Below, piece by piece: positions 5,266 to 45,966 of a DNA stretch of 64,000 bases. The notes beneath the pieces are model-generated. The model saw nothing but the letters and a program-made list of their open reading frames with translations. It was not told the origin of the DNA and did no database searches. Both the position numbers and the translations under genes were made by a program. Every line of letters starts with the position of its first letter. Positions within the stretch are counted from its first letter, which is position 1. The stretch comes from Microbacterium sp. HD4P20 (GTDB lineage: Bacteria > Actinomycetota > Actinomycetes > Actinomycetales > Microbacteriaceae), in contig NZ_JAHZQZ020000010.1 in assembly GCF_019449275.2 (NCBI RefSeq), forward strand, positions 62,001 through 126,000, written 5' to 3'.

Positions 5266-7143
5266 ATGATGTCTGCTGCATCCCCTACACCGGGCCCTCC
5301 GCGCACGGCCACCCTCCCGGTGAGACGGCGGCGCCGATCCCGATGGATCAGCGTGCCCGGCGTCGTCGCGATGATCGGCATCACGGCCCTCCTCGCGATC
5401 GCCGTCATCGGCTCCGAGATCTGGGCCGACGCCGCGACCACGCGCAATGTCGCCGAGCGGTGGGCGCCGGCCAGCGCCGCTCATCCTTTCGGCACCGACG
5501 ACATCGGTCGCGACATTCTCGCCCGCGTCATGGTCGCGGCGCGGACCTCGCTGCTGCTGACGGCCGGGGCGACCGCGATGCTCATGATCGGCGGACTCGT
5601 CATCGGCCTCACCGCGGTCATGCTCCCACGGCGGCTGCGCCGCGCGCTCATCTGGGTCATGGACATGCTCCTGGCGTTCCCGTGGCTGCTGCTCGTGCTC
5701 TTCTTCACCGTGATCTGGGATGCCTCGGCCATCGGAGCGATGCTCGCCATCGGCTTCGCCGGCATCCCCAGCGTCACGCGCCTCGTCTACAACATGGCAT
5801 CGTCGGTGTCGGATCAGGATTACGTGCGCGCCGCCCGCGTGGTCGGCGTCGGCAAGCTGGGGATCATGGTCAGGCACATCCTGCCGAACATCGCCAATCC
5901 GCTGTTGGTGCAGTCCGCGGCGGCAGCGACCACGACGCTCCTCGCCTTCGCGGGTCTGTCCTTCCTCGGACTGGGCGTCCAGGCGCCCGAGTACGACTGG
6001 GGCCGACTGCTCAACGAGGGTCTGGTCCACCTCTACACGAACCCGATGGCAGCACTCGGGCCGGGAATCGCGATCGTGTTCGCGGGCCTGGTCTTCACCA
6101 TGATCGCCGAGACCGTCGGTCAGCAGCCCGGCCAAGGCATCCGCGCCGTCGCCAGCGCCAGCCGCACGGCCGTGGCCGTTCGACGCCACGCCCAAGCTGC
6201 GGCGGCCTCCGGTCCGGTCCGGGCCGCCGGGTCGGCGCTCGCAGAGGTGCGGGGGCTGCGCGTGTCGTTCTCCGATGGCGAGGGCGGATTCGTCGAACGC
6301 GTCCGGGGCGTCGACCTCCATGTCGACTCCGGCGAGGTGGTCGGCATCGTGGGCGAGTCCGGATCGGGCAAGTCGCTGACGGCCATGGCTCTCGCGGGGC
6401 TCCTGGACGCGCCCGCGATCGTCGAGGCGGAGGTCCGGCGCTTCGACGACATCGATCTGGAGGCCAAGCCATCGCTCACGGCGCGCAAGAGACTCGGTGT
6501 CGAGCTCGGTGTGATCTTCCAGGATCCCCTCACCTCGCTGAACCCGGCATTGACCATCGGGCGGCAGCTCACCGAGGTTCCCCGGGAGCACCTCGGCATG
6601 AGCAGGGCCGAGGCGCACGACCGAGCCGTGCACGGCCTCGACGCCGTCGGCATCGCCGAACCGGAATCACGGCTGGGCGACTACCCCCACCAGTTCTCCG
6701 GCGGGATGCGGCAGCGCGCGATGATCGGGATGGCGCTGACCGGACGACCCCGCCTGATCATCGCCGACGAGCCGACCACCGCCCTGGACGTGACGGTGCA
6801 GCGTCAGGTGCTCAGTGTGCTCAGACGTGCGCAGCAGGCGACCGGAGCAGGCATCCTGTTCATCTCGCATGACATCGCCCTGGTGTCGGGCTTCTGCGAC
6901 CGGGTGGTGGTCATGAAGGACGGCGAGGTCGTCGAAGAGCTGGATGCGCGGCGCATCAAGGAGCAGGCCACCCATCCGTACACGCAGGGGCTCATCGCGT
7001 GTCTGCCCGATATGAGCTCGGACCGCACCCGACCGCTGCCCGTCATCAGTGACAGCCTGCAGTCCCGTGGCGTGGCGGAGCGCCCCCCTTCCGCCGAGGA
7101 GGAGGGCCTGTGGATGCTTCAGCACGAGGAGGCAAGGCTGTGA
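5266..7143 (+). CDS. ABC transporter permease-ATPase fusion (DppC-DppD type)
   Basis: A 625-residue fusion. Residues 1-290 are a DppC-type permease with an N-terminal hydrophobic segment and the EAA-loop sequence YVRAARVVGVGKLG. After an alanine-rich linker, residues 325-610 form a DppD-type ATPase with Walker A GESGSGKS (about 363-370), signature FSGGMRQR (about 477), Walker B LIIADEPTTALD (about 497) and H-loop ISHD (about 534). The ATG at 5266 has GAGGG seven bases upstream. Such permease-ATPase fusions occur in actinobacterial peptide importers, so this is unlikely to be an assembly error. It completes the importer with the genes on either side. Confidence 0.92.
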   Translation: MMSAASPTPGPPRTATLPVRRRRRSRWISVPGVVAMIGITALLAIAVIGSEIWADAATTRNVAERWAPASAAHPFGTDDIGRDILARVMVAARTSLLLTAGATAMLMIGGLVIGLTAVMLPRRLRRALIWVMDMLLAFPWLLLVLFFTVIWDASAIGAMLAIGFAGIPSVTRLVYNMASSVSDQDYVRAARVVGVGKLGIMVRHILPNIANPLLVQSAAAATTTLLAFAGLSFLGLGVQAPEYDWGRLLNEGLVHLYTNPMAALGPGIAIVFAGLVFTMIAETVGQQPGQGIRAVASASRTAVAVRRHAQAAAASGPVRAAGSALAEVRGLRVSFSDGEGGFVERVRGVDLHVDSGEVVGIVGESGSGKSLTAMALAGLLDAPAIVEAEVRRFDDIDLEAKPSLTARKRLGVELGVIFQDPLTSLNPALTIGRQLTEVPREHLGMSRAEAHDRAVHGLDAVGIAEPESRLGDYPHQFSGGMRQRAMIGMALTGRPRLIIADEPTTALDVTVQRQVLSVLRRAQQATGAGILFISHDIALVSGFCDRVVVMKDGEVVEELDARRIKEQATHPYTQGLIACLPDMSSDRTRPLPVISDSLQSRGVAERPPSAEEEGLWMLQHEEARL

Positions 7144-36269: not shown

Positions 36270-36299
36270 ATATCGCCCGCATATCGGAAAGCGCATACG
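36270..36299. promoter_or_regulatory. Phased direct repeats upstream of vanH (possible response-regulator site)
   Basis: ATATCG occurs at 36270-36275 and again at 36281-36286, exactly 11 bases apart, and GCATACGG follows at 36293-36300, resembling GCATATCGG at 36279-36287. Direct repeats spaced by a helical turn are typical of OmpR-type regulators such as VanR. They lie in the 74-base gap between the mannosidase stop and vanH. Confidence 0.35.
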
Positions 36300-36332
36300 G
36301 GGTGACAACGGCCCGCTGTCTTGACTGAACGC

Positions 36333-37403
36333 ATGGTCGTTCCCCCTACCGCGCGAACCGGCAGCTTCGGGATGCCGCCGCCCTCGTTCCTCGTCGGATC
36401 CGCTCGTCCCGGGCATGGGTCCGGCGCCGGGCGTCCGACCGCCAGTCTCGAAGTCACCGCCTTCGGGTGCGACGTGGACGAGGCGATGCTGCTCCGGGAG
36501 GTGGCACCGAGGCTCGACGTCACACCTGTCATCACCGGGGCCGCGGTCTCAGAGGCGACGATCGAACTCGCCGTGGGCAGCCGCTGCATCAGCGTCGGGC
36601 ACAAGAGCGACATCACGGCATCGCACCTGACGGCGCTGCGCCGCGCCGGTGTGGAGTACATCTCCACACGCAGCATCGGCTACGACCACATCGACGTGGC
36701 CGCGGCCGAGAGCCTCGGCATCCGCGTCGAGAACGTGGCGTACTCGCCCGCAAGCGTCGCGGACTACACGCTCATGCTGATGCTCATGGCGGTGCGGCAC
36801 GCCGCTTCCGTCCTGCGCCGCGTCGCCGCGCACGACTTCCGGCTGCCCGAGACGCGCGGTCGCGAACTCGGCGACCTCACCGTCGGAGTGATCGGAACGG
36901 GGCGGATCGGCGCGGCCGTCATCGATCGACTGCGCGGATTCGGATGCCGCATCCTCGCGCACGATCAGCGGCAGACGAACCCAGGCCAGGACGTGCCGCT
37001 CGACCAGCTGCTGCGCGAGAGCGACATCGTGACGTTGCACACCCCACTCACACGCGAGACACATCACCTCCTGGATGGGCAGCGGATCGGCCAGCTCAAG
37101 TCCGGCGCCGTCGTCGTCAACACCGCGCGCGGCCCCCTCATCGACACCGATGCGCTGATTCGGGCGCTGGAGGCGGGCCGCGTCGGCGGTGCCGCGCTGG
37201 ACGTCGTCGAAGGAGAGGAGGGCGTCTTCTATGCGGATCATCGCGGCCGGCCCGTCGAGAGCGAGCGGCTGCGGCGCCTGCAGATGCTGCCGAACGTGAT
37301 CATCAGCCCCCACTCCGCGTATTTCACCGAGCGAGCGCTGCGCGACATGGTCGAGAACTCGCTCAGCAACTGCCTGCGATTTGAAGGGAGACACCATGGC
37401 TAG
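36333..37403 (+). CDS. vanH: VanH, D-lactate dehydrogenase for D-Ala-D-Lac resistance
   Basis: A D-2-hydroxyacid dehydrogenase that reduces pyruvate to D-lactate for vanA. From about residue 38 it matches VanH closely: VTAFGCDVDEA, CISVGHKSDITAS, GVEYISTRSIGYDHID, ENVAYSPASVADYTLMLMLM, the NAD loop GVIGTGRIGAAV, DVVEGEEGVFY and ISPHSAYFTERALRD. Catalytic Arg, Glu and His are present. It is closer in recalled sequence to streptomycete than to enterococcal VanH. The first 37 residues lack a counterpart in VanH, and no ribosome site is clear; an ATG at 36372 is an alternative start. The stop overlaps the vanA start. Confidence 0.92.
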   Translation: MVVPPTARTGSFGMPPPSFLVGSARPGHGSGAGRPTASLEVTAFGCDVDEAMLLREVAPRLDVTPVITGAAVSEATIELAVGSRCISVGHKSDITASHLTALRRAGVEYISTRSIGYDHIDVAAAESLGIRVENVAYSPASVADYTLMLMLMAVRHAASVLRRVAAHDFRLPETRGRELGDLTVGVIGTGRIGAAVIDRLRGFGCRILAHDQRQTNPGQDVPLDQLLRESDIVTLHTPLTRETHHLLDGQRIGQLKSGAVVVNTARGPLIDTDALIRALEAGRVGGAALDVVEGEEGVFYADHRGRPVESERLRRLQMLPNVIISPHSAYFTERALRDMVENSLSNCLRFEGRHHG

Positions 37404-38436
37404 AACCCGGATCGGCGTGCTGTTCGGCGGTCGATCGGAGGAGCATCCGATCTCGCTGAAGTCCGCACGCGAGGTGGCGGCGCACCTGGACCTCGAGAAG
37501 TACGAGCCGTTCTACGTCGGCATCACCCCGGAGGGCGCCTGGCGGCTGTGCGACGATCCCGGCGACGGCTGGGACTCGGGCTCGTCGCGTCCTGTGGTGC
37601 TCTCGCCGGATCCCGGGACCCGGGGGCTTCTCGTCCTGGGGGACGAGGGTTACCAGGCGATCGGGCTGGACGTGGTGCTGCCGGTGCTGCACGGCAGGTT
37701 CGGTGAGGACGGCGCGATCCAGGGCCTGCTCGAGCTCTCGGGCATTCCGTACGTCGGCTGTGGCATCCAGTCCTCCGCCGTGTGCATGGACAAGTCGCTC
37801 GCGTATGTCGTCGCGCGCGCCGCGGGGATCGCCACGCCCGACTTCTGGGTGCTCTCGCGGGGGGAGGACATCGATCCGCGGGCGATCCGCTATCCCGTCT
37901 TCGTCAAGCCCGCTCGCTCCGGGTCGTCGTTCGGTGTCAGCAAAGTCACCGGTCCCGAGGGATTCGACGCGGCGGTGGCCGCGGCACGTCGATACGACGA
38001 GAAGGTGCTGATCGAAGCCGCGGTGGTGGGCAGCGAGGTGGGGTGCGCGGTCATGGGGAGCGGCCGCGAGCTGACCGTCGGCGAGGTCGACCGCATCGCG
38101 CTGTCGGGCGGGTTCTTCCGCATCCATCAGGAGAGCGCTCCCGAGACGGGCTCCGAGAACTCGACGCCGATCGTGCCGGCCGACATCCCCGCTCCCTCAC
38201 GGCGGTTGGTGCAGGCCACCGCCGAGGCGATCTACCGGGCGCTGGGGTGCAGCGGGATCGCCCGGGTCGACCTGTTCCTGACCGAAGAGGGCGCCGTCAT
38301 CCTCAACGAAGTCAACACGATGCCGGGTATGACCTCGTACAGCCGGTACCCGCGCATGATGGCCGCCGCTGGCATCCCGCTTTCCGAGCTCATCGACCGA
38401 CTCGCGACCGAGGCGATGGAGGGGGCTCGGCGATGA
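37396..38436 (+). CDS. vanA: VanA-type D-alanine--D-lactate ligase
   Basis: A 346-residue ATP-grasp ligase joining D-Ala to D-Lac, so that peptidoglycan precursors end in a depsipeptide that binds vancomycin poorly. Diagnostic residues are present: H244 in FFRIHQES sits at the position that sets D-Lac preference in VanA (a Tyr-containing loop in ordinary Ddl), followed by the omega loop ETGSEN. Other motifs are LFGGRSEEHPISLKSA, VKPARSGSSFGVSKV and LNEVNTMPGMTSYSRYPRMM. The ATG at 37396 has AGGGAG upstream and overlaps vanH by 8 bases. It could be called a vanA/vanB-group homologue; the D-Lac specificity is well supported by sequence. Confidence 0.94.
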   Translation: MARTRIGVLFGGRSEEHPISLKSAREVAAHLDLEKYEPFYVGITPEGAWRLCDDPGDGWDSGSSRPVVLSPDPGTRGLLVLGDEGYQAIGLDVVLPVLHGRFGEDGAIQGLLELSGIPYVGCGIQSSAVCMDKSLAYVVARAAGIATPDFWVLSRGEDIDPRAIRYPVFVKPARSGSSFGVSKVTGPEGFDAAVAAARRYDEKVLIEAAVVGSEVGCAVMGSGRELTVGEVDRIALSGGFFRIHQESAPETGSENSTPIVPADIPAPSRRLVQATAEAIYRALGCSGIARVDLFLTEEGAVILNEVNTMPGMTSYSRYPRMMAAAGIPLSELIDRLATEAMEGARR

Positions 38437-39059
38437 ACCGCGACTTCGCCTTCGTCGATGAGGTGGTGCCCGGCATCCGTTGGGATGCGAAGTACGCCAC
38501 GTGGGACAACTTCACCGGCCGGCCCGTGGACGGCTACTCGGCCAACCGCATCGTCGGTACCCGCTCGCTCTGCGAGGCGCTCCGCGTCGCGCGGGAGCAT
38601 GCCGCCCAGCTCGGATTCGGCCTGCTGCTGTGGGACGGCTATCGTCCCCAGCGGGCCGTCGACAGCTTCACGCGCTGGGCGCAGCGGCCCGAGGACGGCC
38701 GCACCAAGTCGCGTCACTACCCGAACCTCGACAGGGATGCGATCTTCGAGAGGGGCTATGTCGCGACGAAGTCCGGGCACAGTCGTGGCAGCACGGTCGA
38801 CCTGACGCTCTTTCACCTCGACACCGGCGACCTGGCTGCCATGGGCGGTGGCCACGACCTGATGGATCCCGTCTCGCACCACGATGCGCGAGGGCTCACG
38901 CGCCTCGAGACGGGCAACCGGAGGCGGCTGCGTGCCGCGATGGAGGCATCCGGATTCGTTTCTTACGACACCGAGTGGTGGCACTACACGCTGTGCGATG
39001 AGCCGTATCCCGACACCTACTTCGACTTTCCGATCGCGCAGCCGGGGATGCGTTCATGA
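38433..39059 (+). CDS. vanX: VanX, D-Ala-D-Ala dipeptidase
   Basis: A 208-residue zinc dipeptidase that destroys D-Ala-D-Ala so that only D-Ala-D-Lac enters the cell wall. Zinc ligands H116, D123 ([13 protein letters not shown]) and H184 (EWWHYTL), the base E181 and R71 (DGYRPQRA) all stand at the classical VanX numbering. It has no signal peptide, as expected for the cytoplasmic VanX rather than the VanY carboxypeptidase. The start overlaps the vanA stop by four bases. Length and motifs indicate a functional enzyme. Confidence 0.95.
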
Positions 39060-40399
39060 TTCCCCTCAGCCTCGCCGAGATCGCGCAGATCGTCGGCGGC
39101 CGGGTCGAGGGCGATGTGGCAGTGACGGTGACGGCGCCGGCGGTGCTCGACGGCCGACGCGCGGAGACCGGGGGGCTCTTCGTCGCGTTCGCGGGCGAGC
39201 ACGCCGATGGGCACGACTTCGCGGAGCAGGCGGAGCGAGCCGGCGCCGTCGCCGTCCTGGGCACGCGCCGCACGACCTTGCCCACGGTCGTCGCGGGCGA
39301 CTCGGCGCGAGCCCTGCAGTCGCTCGCCACGCACGTCGTCGCGGGGCTGCGCCCGGAGATGACGGTGATCGGGATCACCGGCTCGCAAGGCAAGACGAGC
39401 ACGAAAGACCTCACCGCGGCGGTGCTCGGCTCGCTCGCTCCGACGGTGGCGACACTCGGAAACTTCAACAATGCGCTCGGGGTGCCGATCACCATGCTGC
39501 GCGCCCAGCCGCACACGCGCTTCCTCGTGCTCGAGATGGGTGCGCGTCGGGTCGGAGACATCGCGACGCTGACCGGCATGGTCGCCCCGGACGTCGCCAT
39601 CGTGCTGAACGTGGGCAAGGCTCACCTGGGTGAGTTCGGATCGCGGTCGGCTATCGCGCGGGGCAAGGCAGAGCTGGTACGAGGGCTCGTGCCCGGCGGC
39701 ACGGCGATCCTCAACGCCGACGATGCGCGCGTGCGGGCGATGCGCGCGCTCACCGACGGGCCGGTGCTCACGTTCGGTCGGGCCGAGGATGCCGACGTGC
39801 GTGTGCAGCACGTCACGCTGGACCGTCTGGGTCGTCCGGAATTCGCCCTGCGAACAGCGGATGCCGCGGCCGCGGTCTCCCTGCCGCTCGTCGGCGCGCA
39901 CCAGGCGTTGAACGCGGCAGCCGCGGCCGCCGCCGGTCTGGTGCACGGGGTTCCGCTCGAACAGGCTGCCGCCGCACTCGCGGCCGCGGCCGACTCGGGG
40001 CAGCGGCTCGAGGTGAAAGAGCTGGAGAACGGCGCGACCCTGCTCGACGACTCGTACAACTCGAGCCCGGGCTCGGTGCGCTCGTCGATCGACGCGCTGG
40101 TCTCGATCAACGGCGGGCGGCGCATCGCCGTGCTCGGCGAGATTCTCGAACTGGGCGACCACAGCGAGTCCGAACACCGCTCCGCGGGTGCGTACGCCGC
40201 CGCCCGGGCCGACATCGTGGTGGGTGTCGGCGAGAACGTGCGCCCGCTCGCCGACGCCGCCGGCGAACGGGGTGTCGCCGTGCCCGACAACGCGGCCGCG
40301 GTCGACTGGCTGCGCGCCAACCTCTCGCCGAGAGACGTCGTGCTGGTCAAAGGCTCGCGCGGGGCGCATCTCGATGAGGTCGTCGCCGCGCTGGAGTAG
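39056..40399 (+). CDS. murF: MurF-type UDP-MurNAc-tripeptide ligase linked to vanHAX
   Basis: A 447-residue Mur ligase that adds the terminal dipeptide, here presumably D-Ala-D-Lac, to UDP-MurNAc-tripeptide. It has the ATP loop [13 protein letters not shown], the central-domain segment [24 protein letters not shown] and the C-terminal [17 protein letters not shown]. The start overlaps vanX (ATGA), so it is the fourth gene of the van operon. A van-linked MurF is known in some actinobacterial glycopeptide-resistance and producer clusters. It may be a paralogue adapted to the depsipeptide; whether the genome has another murF cannot be seen. Confidence 0.92.
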
Positions 40400-40425
40400 C
40401 CCGTTGCGCAACCTGACCGACGGTC

Positions 40426-40454
40426 TTGGCAACGTTGTACGGCGACGCTACGCT
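40426..40454 (+). promoter_or_regulatory. Promoter of the alditol-catabolism operon
   Basis: -35 TTGGCA (40426-40431) and -10 TACGCT (40449-40454) are separated by 17 bases, one of the best matches to a housekeeping promoter in the window. The predicted transcription start is near 40461, just before an operator-like repeat. Confidence 0.65.
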
Positions 40455-40463
40455 GAAACCGCA

Positions 40464-40485
40464 ATTGTTGTTGACGAGAACAAAT
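40464..40485. promoter_or_regulatory. Operator candidate (TTGTT/AACAA repeat) downstream of the start site
   Basis: ATTGTTGTTGACGAGAACAAAT contains TTGTT (40468-40472) and AACAA (40479-40483) as an inverted pair with six bases between, plus a second TTGTT at 40465-40469. Such half-sites occur in DeoR- and ROK-type operators. It sits from +4, where a repressor would block transcription. No cognate regulator gene is adjacent. Confidence 0.45.
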
Positions 40486-40501
40486 ATGCGGAAGGTCAAG
40501 G

Positions 40502-41503
40502 ATGACACAGGGAGCCCGCATGACCGGCCTGACCGCGCAGAACTGGCCTATCGCCGCCGCGGCCCTTCCGTTCCCGGGTCGCCTGCCCGACGGTCGCAGC
40601 GTGACCGATGCCGGGCCCGAGGCGTGGAGCGGCCCGCTGACCGACGTCGCCGACGCCGGCTTCGACCGCATCGACATCACCGACTCCTGGCTGCGCGTCG
40701 GAGACCTGAGCGCTGAGCGCCTGACCGACCTGACCTCTCTGGCCGCCGAGACGGGCGTGGTGCCCACCTCGGTCTCGGCCATCCGGTGCAGCGTGATCGA
40801 CCACGCCGACGGCGAGGCGAACCTCGCCTACAGCCACCGGACGCTGGATGCCGCGGCCGCGCTGGGCATCGAGACGGTGTCGTTCGGTCTGCACCAGGCG
40901 CTGACCCCCGCGCAGCAGGAGCAGCTGTGGTTCTGGACCGTCGAAGGACACCACGACGACCCGGCGGACTGGGATCTCGCGGTCGGCCGGCTGCAGGAGC
41001 TGGGCCGTCACGCGGCCGAGCTCGGCATCCTGGTGTCGCTCGAGATGTACGAAGACACCTTCCTGGGCACCGGGGATTCCGCGGTGCGGCTCGTGGAGGA
41101 CATCGGCATGGAAAACGTCGGGCTCAACCCCGACATCGGGAATCTGGTGCGGCTGCACCGGCCCATCGAGCCGTGGTGGGAGCTGGTCGAGAAGACCGTC
41201 CCGTACGCGAACTTCTGGCACGTCAAGAACTACGCGCGCGATGAAGACACCGCGCGTGGCGCGTACTTCGCGGTGCCGGCACCTATGCAATACGGCCTGA
41301 TCGACTACCGCCGAGCCTTCGCGTACGCGATCGAACACGGGTTCCAGGGCGTGATCTGCGTGGAGCACTATGGCGGCGACGGGCTGAGCGTGTGCGCCGA
41401 CAACCGCGACTACCTGCGCCGGCACGTGCTGCCCAAGCGCCAGGGCTACTCGCTGGGTACAAGCAGGGTGCGTCAGCCGCGCCAGGACGGCGGTGCCGCA
41501 TGA
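40502..41503 (+). CDS. TIM-barrel sugar isomerase/epimerase (AP-endonuclease family 2 fold)
   Basis: A 333-residue xylose-isomerase-like TIM-barrel protein. Likely metal ligands are the Glu in LVSLEMYED, the Asp in GLNPDIGNL, the His in FWHVKNY and the Glu in GVICVEHYGGD. The fold serves aldose-ketose isomerases, ketose 3-epimerases and 2-oxo-tetronate isomerases. Two starts are possible: ATG 40502 (GAAGG six bases upstream) and ATG 40520 (GGGAG six bases upstream). It is the first gene of an operon with a DAK-type kinase and alditol oxidase, so isomerising the oxidase product to a ketose, or epimerising a ketose, is a reasonable inference. Confidence 0.82.
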   Translation: MTQGARMTGLTAQNWPIAAAALPFPGRLPDGRSVTDAGPEAWSGPLTDVADAGFDRIDITDSWLRVGDLSAERLTDLTSLAAETGVVPTSVSAIRCSVIDHADGEANLAYSHRTLDAAAALGIETVSFGLHQALTPAQQEQLWFWTVEGHHDDPADWDLAVGRLQELGRHAAELGILVSLEMYEDTFLGTGDSAVRLVEDIGMENVGLNPDIGNLVRLHRPIEPWWELVEKTVPYANFWHVKNYARDEDTARGAYFAVPAPMQYGLIDYRRAFAYAIEHGFQGVICVEHYGGDGLSVCADNRDYLRRHVLPKRQGYSLGTSRVRQPRQDGGAA

Positions 41504-43227
41504 CCCGCATCGCGAACGACGCCGCGGACTTCGTGCCGCAGGCCCTCGCCGGATTCGTCGCCGCCCACGGCGAGCTCGTGCGCGCTGTCGACGGCGGCGT
41601 CGTGAGGACGAATCCGGCCCCTCGTGGATCGGTCGCCGTCGTGATCGGTGGCGGTTCCGGCCACTACCCGGCCTTCGCCGGGGTGGTGGGTGCCGGCATG
41701 GCGTCCGGGGCGGTCTGCGGCAACATCTTCACGTCGCCGTCGGCGGGGCAGGCGTATCGCGTCGCCAAGGCGGCGCATCGCGGCGGCGGGGTGCTGTACA
41801 GCTTCGGCAACTACGCCGGCGACGTGCTGCATTTCGGCGAGGCCCAGGAACGGCTGCGCGAAGAGGGCATCGACGCGCGCACTGTGCTGTGCACCGACGA
41901 CATCGCCAGCGCGCCCCTCGACGAGATCGACAAGCGCCGCGGCATCGCGGGCGACTTCACCGTCTTCAAGATCGCGGGCGCCGCCGCCGAACGGGGCGAC
42001 TCGATCGATGAGGTCGAGCGGCTCGCGCGCCTGGCGAACCATCGCACGCGCACCCTCGGGGTGGCGTTCGGCGGATGCACCTTCCCCGGGGCTGACGAGC
42101 CGCTGTTCACGGTGCCCGAGGGGATGATGTCGATCGGGCTCGGCATCCACGGCGAGCCCGGCATCCGTGATGTGCCGCGCACGAGTTCGGCCGACCTCGC
42201 CCAGACCCTCGTCGACGAGCTGCTCGGCGATGTGCCCGAGAACCGGGGTGATCGCGTGGCGGTGATCGTCAACGGGCTGGGCACCGTGAAGTACGAGGAG
42301 CTCTTCGTGCTCTTCGGGGACGTCGCGGCCCGGCTCGACGGCGCCGGAATCACCGTCGTGCAGCCCGAGGTGGGCGAGTTGGTGACGAGTCTGGACATGG
42401 CCGGGACATCCGTCACCTTCTTCTGGCTCGATGACGAACTCGAGCCGTTGTGGGCTGCTCCCGCGTACACGCCGGCGTATCGCAAGGGTGCCGTGCAGAT
42501 CGCACGTGCCGATGGCGCTGAAGATCTCGAGGACGAGATCGAGGCGCCGACCGACATCCCCCCGGCGTCGGAGTGGTCTCAGCGCGCCGCGGGCGCGGCG
42601 CTGACGCACCTCGACGTCGTCCGTGCGACGATCCATGAACACGAGACAGAGCTCGGCCGCATCGACGCGATCGCGGGGGACGGCGACCACGGGGTCGGCA
42701 TGCGCACCGGCATCGACGCCGCGACGGATGCCGCAGACCCGGCGCTCGGACTCTCGGGCATGCTCGCCGCCGCCGGCGACGCGTGGAGCGAGAAAGCGGG
42801 CGGCACGTCCGGGGCGCTGTGGGGTGCGATGCTGCGCGCGATCGGGCGCGCACTCGATCACGACGATGCCGACCCGCGCGCGACCGCAGTCGAGGCCGCT
42901 CGCGCCGCGCTCGAGGCCGTCACCTCACGGGGCGGCGCCCGAGTCGGCGACAAGACGATGGTCGACGCGCTCGACCCGTACGTGGAAGCGCTCGCCGAAC
43001 GCCTCGACGCCGGCGCCGAGATCGGCGACGCGCTCGCCGCCGCGGCGCAGGCGGCGACCGACGCCGCGGCGGCCACCTCGACGCTGCGCCCCGCGCTCGG
43101 GAGGGCCCGGCCGCTCGCTGAGAAGAGCCTGGGGCACCCCGACGCCGGCGCCACCTCGCTGGCGCTGATCGCGACCGCGATCGCCGAGGCATCCTCATCA
43201 CGTCCCACCCGAGAGGAAGAGCGATGA
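41500..43227 (+). CDS. Dihydroxyacetone-kinase family ketose kinase (DhaK-DhaL fusion)
   Basis: A 575-residue ATP-dependent kinase with both DAK domains. The DhaK part (residues 1-330) has [25 protein letters not shown] and H217 in GLGIHGEPG, the residue that holds the ketose as a hemiaminal. The DhaL part (about 365-570) has the magnesium-ATP motif [13 protein letters not shown]. Related enzymes act on dihydroxyacetone, D- or L-erythrulose or apulose. With an RpiB-type isomerase next door, a D-erythrulose (DerK-like) role is my preferred reading. The ATG at 41500 overlaps the upstream stop. Confidence 0.9.
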
Positions 43228-43733
43228 CCGAGCCCCTGCGGATCGTCGTCGGAAGCGACGACGCCGGCTACGAGTACAAGTCGGCCCTGAAAGCCCTGCT
43301 GGAGGCCGATCCTCGGGTCGCCTCAGTGGCGGATGTCGGGGTCGGCGGCGATGAGCACACCGACTACCCGCATGTCGCGGTGGAAGCCGCGCGGCGCGTC
43401 GCCGGGGGCGACGCGGACCGTGCGCTGCTCATCTGCGGCACCGGGCTCGGCGTGGCGATCTCGGCGAACAAGGTGCCGGGCGTCCGTGCCGTGACCGCGC
43501 ACGACAGCTACTCGGTGGAGCGTTCGGTGATGAGCAACAACGCGCAGGTGCTCACCATGGGCCAGCGCGTCATCGGTCTCGAGCTGGCCAAGCGCCTGGT
43601 GTCGGAGTGGCTCGGCTACCGGTTCGACCCGACATCCGCCTCGGCGGCGAAGGTGGCGGCCATCGACTCCTACGACCAAGGCGGCCAAGCCGACCAGCAC
43701 CCCGATCACAACACCGCGGAGGCACGCTCATGA
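43224..43733 (+). CDS. RpiB/LacAB family sugar-phosphate isomerase
   Basis: A 169-residue isomerase that interconverts aldose and ketose phosphates. The catalytic cysteine is C71 in [15 protein letters not shown], followed by [19 protein letters not shown], the family's active-site segment. In known tetritol pathways this family supplies D-erythrulose-4-phosphate isomerase; elsewhere it acts on ribose-5-phosphate or allose-6-phosphate. The start overlaps the kinase stop, so the product of the kinase is the likely substrate. Confidence 0.9.
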
Positions 43734-44695
43734 CCCGGATCGCCGTCGTCGGCAGTGGCTACATGGGTGGCGGGATGGCACAGGTGTTCGCGCTGGGCGG
43801 CCACGACGTCGTCATCTCGGACGTCACCGCCGAGATCGCCGCATCGAACCTGGAGCGGATCCGCACCGAGACCGAGCAGTTCGAGCAGCAAGGACTCTTC
43901 GCGGCCGGCGCGACGGCCGTCATCGCCGAGCGGATCACCGCCGCGCAGAGCATCGAGGACGCCGTCGTCGATGCCGAGTTCATCGAGGAGGCGGTGCCCG
44001 AGCGCATCGAGATCAAGCACGAGACGCTGCGGCGCATCTCGCGGGCGAATCCGGCCGCGGTCATCGGCAGCAACACCTCGACGATCTCGATCGCGAAGCT
44101 CGCCGAGGCCGTCGAGCACCCGGAGCGGTTTCTCGGCGTGCACTTCTCCAACCCCGCCCCGTTCGTGCCCGGCGTGGAGCTCATCCCGCACCCGACCACC
44201 GCCGAGAGCGCGATCGTCGCGGCCGAAGCGCTGATCGTCGGAAGCGGCAAGATCGGCGCCCGCGTGAAGGATGCGACCGGATTCGTGCTGAACCGGCTGC
44301 AGTACGCGCTCTTCCACGAGGCGACCCAGCTCGTCGACGAGGGCGTCGCGACCCCGGAGGACATCGACGCGATCGTCCGTTCGACGTTCGGATTCCGCCT
44401 GCCGTTCTTCGGTCCCTTCGCGATCGCCGACATGGCCGGGCTCGACGTCTACGCCTTCTGCTACGCGTCACTGCAGAGCGACTTTCCCGAGCGCTTCGCG
44501 ACGCCGGCCATCCTCGCCGAGCGCATCGAGCGCGGCGAGCTGGGAACCAAGACGGGGGCCGGATTCCGCGCCATCGAGCCGGAACGCATTCCGGAGCTGG
44601 TGGCGTATCGCAACCGCGCGTACGCCAAGATGAAGGAGCTGCTGGACGAGCTCGGCCCCTCGCCGTTCGACGAGCCGGCGGGGAAGGTGCGGTGA
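43730..44695 (+). CDS. 3-hydroxyacyl-CoA dehydrogenase-fold NAD-dependent dehydrogenase
   Basis: A 321-residue two-domain dehydrogenase. The NAD loop is [15 protein letters not shown]. The HFSNP-like segment ([10 protein letters not shown]) contains the catalytic histidine, followed by [19 protein letters not shown]. Members act on 3-hydroxyacyl-CoAs or on sugar acids (L-gulonate 3-dehydrogenase group). No other fatty-acid oxidation gene is nearby, so a polyol or sugar-acid role is more likely (inference). It overlaps both neighbours by four bases. Confidence 0.82.
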
Positions 44696-45966
44696 GCGTG
44701 GCGACAGGGACGATCGGGGAGCGCAACTGGGCATCGAACCTCGTCTACGGATCCGAGCGCATCCTGGCCCCGCGTTCGATCGAAGAGCTTGCGGATGCGG
44801 TCCGCTCCGCGTCACGCGTGAAGGCCCTGGGCAGTCGTCACTGCTTCAACACGATCGCCGACACCGACGGCGTGCACATCGTCACTCGTGAGCTGCCGGC
44901 CGAAGTGGCGGTCGACAGCGAGCGCCGCGTCGTGCGGGTGGCGGCGGGCCTGCGGTACGGGGATGTCGCGCCCCGGCTCGACTCCGAAGGATGGGCGCTC
45001 GCGAACCTCGCTTCACTGCCGCACATCTCGCTCGCCGGAGCGGTGGCCACGGGCACTCACGGGTCGGGCGACGCCGTGGCGTCCCTGGCGGCATCCGTCG
45101 CCGCGGTCGAGCTCGTGACGGCCGACGGCCAGACCCGCCGCTTCGCGCGGGGCGAGGCGGACTTCGACGGGGTCGTGGTCTCACTCGGGGCGCTCGGCGT
45201 CGTGACCGCCCTCGAGCTCGACATCGTGCCCACCTTCGACATCGCGCAGACCGTCTACGAGCGGCTGCCGCTGGACGCCGTGCTCGACGACCTCGACGCC
45301 GTCACGGGCCTCGGCTACAGCGTCTCGATGTTCCACACGTGGCGCGATCCCGCCGTCGTCGACCAGCTGTGGGTGAAGCGACGAGCGGATGCCGCCGGCA
45401 CCGCGCCTGCCGAGGTGCTGGGCTCCGCGCGGTCGGCTGTGAAGCGGCATCCGCTTCCCGACGTCTCGGCGGCGAGCTGCACCGATCAGCTCGGCGAGCC
45501 CGGCCCGTGGTTCGCGCGCCTGCCGCACTTCAAGCTCGAGTTCACGCCGTCCAACGGCGACGAGCTGCAGTCGGAGTATCTCGTGCCGCGACGCAACGCG
45601 GTGGCGGCCATCTCGGCCCTGCGAGAGCTCGCCCCGCGCGTCGCCCCGCTGCTGCAGGTGTGCGAGCTGCGCACGGTCGCGCGGGACGATCTGTGGCTGT
45701 CACCGGCGTCCGAGACCGATGTGCTGGGCCTTCACTTCACCTGGAAGCCGGACCAGCCGGGCGTCGAAGCGCTGCTGCCCACGATCGAGGCCGCCCTCGC
45801 GCCGCTCGAGGCTCGCCCGCACTGGGGCAAGCTGTTCACGCTCGAGGGGGCCGACCAGCGGATGCCGCAGCTCTATCCCCGCTGGAACGACTTCGCCGCC
45901 CTGCGCGACCGCCTCGACCCGCGCGGAGTCTTCCGCAACGACTTCCTGGCCCGGCTCGGACTGTGA
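44692..45966 (+). CDS. aldO: Alditol oxidase (FAD-linked, AldO/xylitol oxidase type)
   Basis: A 424-residue flavoprotein that oxidises the terminal hydroxyl of an alditol with O2 to give an aldose and H2O2. Residues of the characterised Streptomyces AldO are all recognisable: the covalent-FAD histidine (H50 in LGSRHCFN), ATGTHGSG, the Glu/Arg pair in VCELRTV, the Thr in HFTWKPD and the Lys in HWGKLFT. No signal peptide is seen, so it is cytoplasmic. GTG 44692 overlaps the previous stop (GTGA). It is the last gene of the operon. Substrate could be xylitol, sorbitol, threitol, erythritol or glycerol; the kinase/isomerase context favours a short one. Confidence 0.9.
   Translation: MSVATGTIGERNWASNLVYGSERILAPRSIEELADAVRSASRVKALGSRHCFNTIADTDGVHIVTRELPAEVAVDSERRVVRVAAGLRYGDVAPRLDSEGWALANLASLPHISLAGAVATGTHGSGDAVASLAASVAAVELVTADGQTRRFARGEADFDGVVVSLGALGVVTALELDIVPTFDIAQTVYERLPLDAVLDDLDAVTGLGYSVSMFHTWRDPAVVDQLWVKRRADAAGTAPAEVLGSARSAVKRHPLPDVSAASCTDQLGEPGPWFARLPHFKLEFTPSNGDELQSEYLVPRRNAVAAISALRELAPRVAPLLQVCELRTVARDDLWLSPASETDVLGLHFTWKPDQPGVEALLPTIEAALAPLEARPHWGKLFTLEGADQRMPQLYPRWNDFAALRDRLDPRGVFRNDFLARLGL

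Follow-up and report, generated by a model that had tools for sequence, protein, structure and literature searches.

An intact vanHAX-murF operon with a candidate VanR operator in Microbacterium sp. HD4P20, and a VanR/VanS pair that could control it in trans

The vanH-vanA-vanX-murF operon

The window analysed here, a 64-kb stretch of DNA (positions 62001-126000 of contig C2 in the 4.03-Mb, 22-contig genome of Microbacterium sp. HD4P20), contains a four-gene operon, vanH-vanA-vanX-murF, of the D-alanyl-D-lactate (D-Ala-D-Lac) class. Its genes are intact and under constraint, its ligase groups phylogenetically with this class, and an operator-like element precedes vanH. We hold with fair confidence that this is a complete, acquired glycopeptide resistance operon whose control is probably split, being exerted in trans by a VanR/VanS pair encoded on contig C3 of the same genome. 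The genes of the operon are:

36333..37403, + strand, vanH, D-lactate dehydrogenase (translation, NCBIfam)
37396..38436, + strand, vanA-type D-Ala-D-Lac ligase gene, 346 amino acids (NCBIfam, tree, structure alignment, residues)
38433..39059, + strand, vanX, D-Ala-D-Ala dipeptidase, 208 amino acids (NCBIfam, structure alignment, residues)
39056..40399, + strand, van-linked murF, 447 amino acids (NCBIfam, tree, alignment columns)

All four genes start with ATG, end at an in-frame stop and translate as open frames, and they overlap by 8 (vanH/vanA), 4 (vanA/vanX) and 4 (vanX/murF) bases. VanA scored 564.6 bits against the D_ala_D_lac model (NCBIfam NF000206, cut-off 550), VanX 377.7 bits (NCBIfam NF033115, cut-off 320) and MurF 396 bits (NCBIfam, cut-off 288.6). 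For VanH the six top NCBIfam models were all VanH models; the vanH_gen score of 483.7 bits is lower than the exception cut-off of 540 but far above the 200.5 bits of the top non-VanH model, which is one for D-lactate dehydrogenase. VanA aligned gaplessly to the solved VanA structure 1e4e, and VanX to the solved VanX structure 1r44. The residues listed in the initial annotation, namely His244 (VanA numbering) and the GSEN loop in VanA, and R71, H116, D123, E181 and H184 in VanX, are all present at the positions it gave.

A comparison of the ligase with ordinary D-Ala-D-Ala ligases (Ddl), which the initial annotation had proposed, came out in its favour. In a VanA tree of 99 rows (quick method; three loci were dropped beforehand, from 102, and two duplicate rows, L002 and L211, are labelled 'other' and inflate its change count, from which nothing is concluded), the window VanA pairs with that of Microbacterium salsuginis, the nearest named relative found, among the D-Ala-D-Lac ligases, while the Ddl of its own genome lies far apart. 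Identity is 92% to the M. salsuginis ligase and 67-72% to those of the other 79 reference loci, the reference vanHAX loci being the best 80 of 567 relatives, with M. salsuginis as the 80th. A reading of these genes as a housekeeping Ddl and MurF was rejected on the NCBIfam scores and the MurF and VanA trees; the four overlapping genes are confirmed as first named. A second MurF and a Ddl are encoded on contig C17, and the presence of an ordinary Ddl and MurF in the genome would fit a D-Lac wall that can be switched on better than a permanent one.

The ratio of nonsynonymous to synonymous substitution rates (dN/dS) between the window and M. salsuginis was 0.30 for vanH, 0.10 for vanA, 0.14 for vanX and 0.16 for the C-terminal 382 codons of murF, values (0.10-0.30) that indicate purifying selection on the cassette genes. 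The alternative that the operon, once acquired, is now in decay or no longer functional would be in keeping with its rarity in the genus (VanX above the family cut-off in 2 of 366 Microbacterium genomes), with the broken murF and VanS frames of M. salsuginis and with an unusual YNSSPGS motif in the window MurF. Against this stand the four intact frames, the presence of all the cited residues, dN/dS well below 1 in each of the regions compared and the preserved operator, and we regard decay as very improbable.

The D-Lac pathway logic put forward in the initial annotation is supported. By the established pathway, VanH would make D-lactate, VanA would join it to D-Ala, VanX would destroy D-Ala-D-Ala, and the linked MurF would load the depsipeptide onto UDP-MurNAc-tripeptide, so that lipid II would end in D-Lac. 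Lipid II with this ending binds vancomycin-type drugs poorly.

The vanH promoter and a candidate VanR operator

Two elements were found in the 74 bases that separate the stop of a mannosidase gene (36258) from the vanH start:

36270..36309, + strand, candidate VanR-type operator of vanH, with the repeats ATATCG..CATATCG..GCATACG and then GACAAC (position weight matrix, 56.4 bits)
36321..36327, + strand, TTGACTG element, 5 bases 5' of the vanH ATG, putative core promoter of a leaderless transcript (conservation)

The position weight matrix (PWM) has 40 columns and was trained on 79 vanH promoters, excluding the window, both M. salsuginis rows and weak promoters (fewer than 22 of 30 seed matches); it is independent of training only at the window, M. 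salsuginis, the vanR, vanY and murF sites and the VanR sites of the genus. In the window it scored 56.4 bits at 36270-36309, with a runner-up in the 64 kb of 0.1 bits and peaks of -18.4 to -10.6 bits in five shuffled windows. A stricter operator pattern, at up to 3 mismatches, found the vanH site alone in the whole genome. Over 100 loci (1.6 Mb) the PWM detected 184 sites of at least 5 bits, as compared with 0, 0, 1, 0 and 1 for five column-permuted matrices.

A site of at least 5 bits was found in 88 of 96 vanH upstream stretches, a set that includes the window, M. salsuginis twice and Galbitalea sp. SE-J8 twice. The eight stretches lacking one belong to two Ktedonobacteria, a Saccharibacteria metagenome-assembled genome, Galbitalea (twice), two Streptomycetaceae and locus L146; in the two Streptomycetaceae, sites lie farther upstream, and in L146 a site precedes the murF that stands before vanH. 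Further PWM sites are located beside vanR and, in several loci, before divergent murF genes. Streptomyces acidiscabies (L061) has separate VanR-type sites at 6926, 9655 and 13383, one upstream of vanH, one upstream of a murF in the same orientation and one close to a vanS-type gene.

The consensus of the vanH promoters reads ATATCGtCGGCaTATCGAAAACCGCATACG; GGCAAC follows after a few bases, and TTGACTGG and the ATG come next. TTGACTG varies little or not at all among 11 aligned vanH promoters, the operator-less one of Galbitalea among them. For the vancomycin-inducible vanH promoter of Streptomyces coelicolor, the reverse primer printed in the excerpted text of PMC9779433 contains, when reverse-complemented, AAAGCGCATACG, which is also contained in the window element. 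The 40-bp element at 36270-36309 is very probably a VanR operator, to which VanR would bind. No published description of the element was found in a literature search that covered paper listings and excerpts. A generic scan for sigma-70 promoters and terminators returned 0 and 0, a result that says little for an actinobacterium.

A VanR/VanS pair encoded in trans

Hidden Markov models (HMMs) of VanR and VanS, built from the vanHAX loci, detected no vanRS in the window or in the M. salsuginis and Galbitalea stretches. The initial annotation was right in placing the operon away from vanRS, while it had missed both the operator-like element of vanH and a vanYRSZ locus on another contig of the same genome. 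A VanS-type kinase above 550 bits was found in 58 of the 80 reference loci (nine of these are HMM seeds, and some stretches are cut by contig ends), and vanRS adjacency was therefore not treated as essential for membership of the vanHAX group.

The locus on contig C3 has the order vanY-vanR-vanS-vanZ. Its VanR is the top VanR match in the genome and is VanR-O-like at 376 bits (next model 160; curated cut-off 505), and its VanS is VanS-O-like at 240 bits (next model 132; curated cut-off 720); a vanHAX-linked reference pair, that of locus L133, is also below the curated cut-offs (454.6 and 488.7 bits). The vanY and vanR genes are divergent, the former with a Pfam VanY match of 43.5 bits (cut-off 25), and the VanZ-family gene is convergent (65 bits); here and in other loci, some VanS and VanY frames were settled by stop-to-stop translation and a listing of open reading frames. 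The stretch separating vanR from vanY contains an operator-like site, which the PWM scores at 14.1 bits. A looser pattern, drawn up with knowledge of both sites, matched the vanH and C3 sites at 0 mismatches and two other sites at 3, and the reversed pattern matched none.

The C3 VanR is 76% identical to the VanR of L133, a Microbacteriaceae regulator whose genes adjoin vanHAX, and 19 of 21 residues are alike in a stretch that we take to be the DNA-recognition helix. VanR-type regulators were detected at E <= 1e-100 in 201 of the 366 Microbacterium genomes; VanR is common in this genus and vanHAX is rare. The 30 best of these 201 VanR-positive genomes all have a site beside vanR, none of which was used in training, and 28 of the 30 loci have a VanY-like frame next to the site, as detected with a VanY HMM made here from five seeds, one of them (G138) also among the 30 loci scanned.

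The likeliest reading of these sequences is that the C3 vanYRSZ pair controls the operon in trans. The operon would be off until phospho-VanR, bound at 36270-36309, activates the leaderless promoter, and the acting VanR and VanS would be those encoded on C3.

The operon could also be constitutive and free of VanRS control, as is printed for Amycolatopsis balhimycina, where vanHAX, apart from vanRS, is stated to be constitutive in the excerpted text of PMC9779433. The lack of an adjacent vanRS in the window and in M. salsuginis, and the VanS of the latter in two frames, would agree with this explanation; the operator kept at 56.4 bits and the existence of VanR/VanS-type genes in trans speak against it. 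So does Galbitalea, which has lost the operator and in which VanRS was not found: the operon is present there and TTGACTG is kept, no VanR was detected at E <= 1e-50, and the best kinase reached 101 bits. Constitutive expression is in our view unlikely.

Another explanation is that the operon is functional and operator-controlled, and that the operator is read not by the C3 pair but by a different two-component system, or by none. A second, more distant VanRS-like pair is indeed encoded on contig C17 (L169 6191-8031; 278 and 295 bits), and the C3 operator matches weakly. However, no operator-like site was found in the 14 kb around the C17 pair (best -17.2 bits), and no other VanR match in the genome is as good as the C3 VanR, which makes a different reader rather doubtful.

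Several observations weigh against control by the C3 pair. The C3 operator matches the PWM poorly (14.1 versus 56.4 bits) and does not come within 3 mismatches of the stricter pattern, and the looser pattern that unites it with the vanH site was devised after both had been seen. With the loci-built HMM the C3 VanS scored 377 bits, versus 591 and 665 bits for G742 and G409, two genomes of the family whose VanRS adjoin vanHAX, and the C-terminal DNA-binding half of VanR is only 79/100 identical to that of L133, so that the C3 pair may sense something else or read the vanH site badly. The same vanYRSZ locus occurs in a genome without vanHAX, G365 (L171), so that vanHAX was not the reason for its retention. 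The VanS and murF frames of M. salsuginis are each broken, and the Galbitalea contrast is a single case.

We would give an even chance to a broader proposal, in which one operator (three ATATCG/ATACG-type repeats before a leaderless TTGACTG promoter) would define an actinobacterial VanR regulon. The widespread resident VanYRS of Microbacterium would then be ready to control, in trans, any arriving vanHAX-murF cassette that bears the operator, and the linked murF would be a regular member of the regulon, probably specialised for D-Ala-D-Lac. The operator offers a sequence-level test that could separate switchable from orphan van operons where vanRS is not adjacent, operons that a survey relying on adjacency may wrongly class as unregulated. 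Should control in trans be true, a resident VanRS, being common, could reduce the hurdle that incoming resistance operons face.

The linked MurF

In a MurF tree of 52 rows (quick method, no bootstrap; nine duplicate rows were removed beforehand, from 61), 37 van-linked rows stand on one side of a branch with a Shimodaira-Hasegawa-like approximate likelihood ratio (SH-aLRT) support of 95, and 13 housekeeping and 2 Ktedonobacterial rows on the other, where the tool warns of long branches meeting (housekeeping versus Ktedonobacterial). The M. salsuginis row of this tree has its N-terminal part out of frame. Linked and housekeeping MurF differ, at the level of at least 90%, in 33 alignment columns, 7 of which have a gap in one group; an example is residue 111 of the window MurF, in the P-loop, which is Gln in linked and Asn in housekeeping sequences. 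On this tree and these columns the window MurF is placed in the van-linked (MurF2) clade, apart from housekeeping MurF.

Near residue 331, both Microbacterium linked MurF proteins have the motif YNSSPGS, which is YNANPDS in four other linked rows and YNASPDS in six housekeeping rows. In Galbitalea sp. SE-J8 (G417; L132 / L060) the MurF family search found the linked MurF only, in a 96%-complete genome of 50 contigs; the van MurF might be needed all the time there, or the other MurF copy might lie in a gap.

Relation to known van systems

The operon resembles the actinobacterial vanHAX clusters with VanO/VanSc/VanI-type ligases in gene order, enzyme classes and the vanH operator, and differs from them in that the window has no adjacent vanRS and that the operon consists of four co-directional genes, the last of them a linked murF. 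In the teicoplanin (tei) cluster of Actinoplanes teichomyceticus, murF2 is found beside vanHAX and a two-component pair, according to the excerpted text of PMC4790382. The position of murF2 next to vanHAX is shared with the window. In the tei case the van genes form an end of the biosynthetic cluster, with constitutive vanHAX, whereas the window operon adjoins a polyol catabolic operon. Am. balhimycina is similar in that vanHAX is separate from vanSRY (PMC8698665, PMC9779433, both as excerpted); it differs in being another genus and in reported constitutive expression, and the excerpts do not mention a linked murF.

The closest parallels are Galbitalea sp. SE-J8 and M. salsuginis, both of which have the order vanH-vanA-vanX-murF without adjacent vanRS. 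Unlike the window, Galbitalea has no operator and no VanRS was found in it, and in M. salsuginis the frames of murF and vanS are broken. HD4P20 itself has one of the Microbacterium vanYRS loci, on C3, with a weak copy of the same operator class; VanY, in contrast, is expected to trim terminal D-Ala and not to install D-Lac.

This kind of system is known already, since there are published cases of vanHAX accompanied by murF and vanRS and of vanHAX separate from vanSRY; what is new here is another vanHAX-murF operon, intact and of a kind rare in Microbacterium, whose regulatory arrangement is informative. No report of vanHAX-murF in this genus was found in a literature search that covered paper listings, and the string 'microbacteri' is absent from the main text of PMC8698665 and PMC9689679. 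The many VanR-type loci of Microbacterium are at odds with the low order-level count in the excerpted text of a survey that used its own cut-offs and 2020 genomes.

Borders, neighbours and distribution of the cassette

The initial annotation described the module as a cassette between sugar operons, and this held up, as did its distances: 74 bases from the mannosidase gene and, for the alditol operon placed about 100 bases downstream, 102 bases from the murF end to the next start at 40502. The downstream features are:

40421..40523, + strand, right border, in which the leader of a GH3 glycosidase gene is fused to the polyol operon (comparison with M. salsuginis and G365)
40502..45966, + strand, polyol/alditol catabolic genes (TIM-barrel isomerase-like, DAK kinase, RpiB, 3HCDH, ALO-type oxidase), context outside the van system (family search)

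M. salsuginis shares 36270-40401 with the window at 85% DNA identity (4.1 kb), with sharp ends; its downstream polyol operon is 89% identical, and the stretch directly upstream of the cassette is different. One M. salsuginis stretch, L096 (3.6 kb, from G147), matches L015 exactly. The van cassette of this species is followed by a GH3 gene that leads into the same polyol operon. This gene is missing from the window, where its leader and first bases are fused to the isomerase-like gene, most simply explained by loss of the GH3 gene through a deletion. In genome G365 a 780-amino-acid gene at the GH3 position runs directly into the polyol operon, with no vanHAX there and no VanX match anywhere in the genome. 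G365 was the top polyol-operon match after the window's own among 58 genomes searched, M. salsuginis not being among those listed. The comparison of gene order at this locus thus yielded a relative that keeps the polyol operon without the van genes.

The N-terminal part of the M. salsuginis murF (L151 9726-10055) continues in a second frame, and so does its VanS-like kinase gene (L170 6852-8741); the system may be in the course of being lost there, or the split frames may be due to assembly indels or sequencing error.

Searches for traces of transposition, as direct repeats at the cassette ends, gave none that was convincing in the 801 + 601 bases searched. Close plasmid relatives of the cassette were rejected on coverage and identity: among the 450 plasmid records matched (396 from Enterococcus), none covers 80% of the cassette, and the top match has 71% identity over 63% of it.

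VanA was detected at E <= 1e-80 in 16 of 398 sampled genomes of the family, in 14 of 85 genera. In addition to the two Microbacterium genomes with VanX above the family cut-off, four more have weaker VanX-family matches. Genome G110 encodes, on contig C28 (L150), a distant VanX-like peptidase with 37% identity to that of the window, near a Ddl-like ligase that stands on a very long branch.

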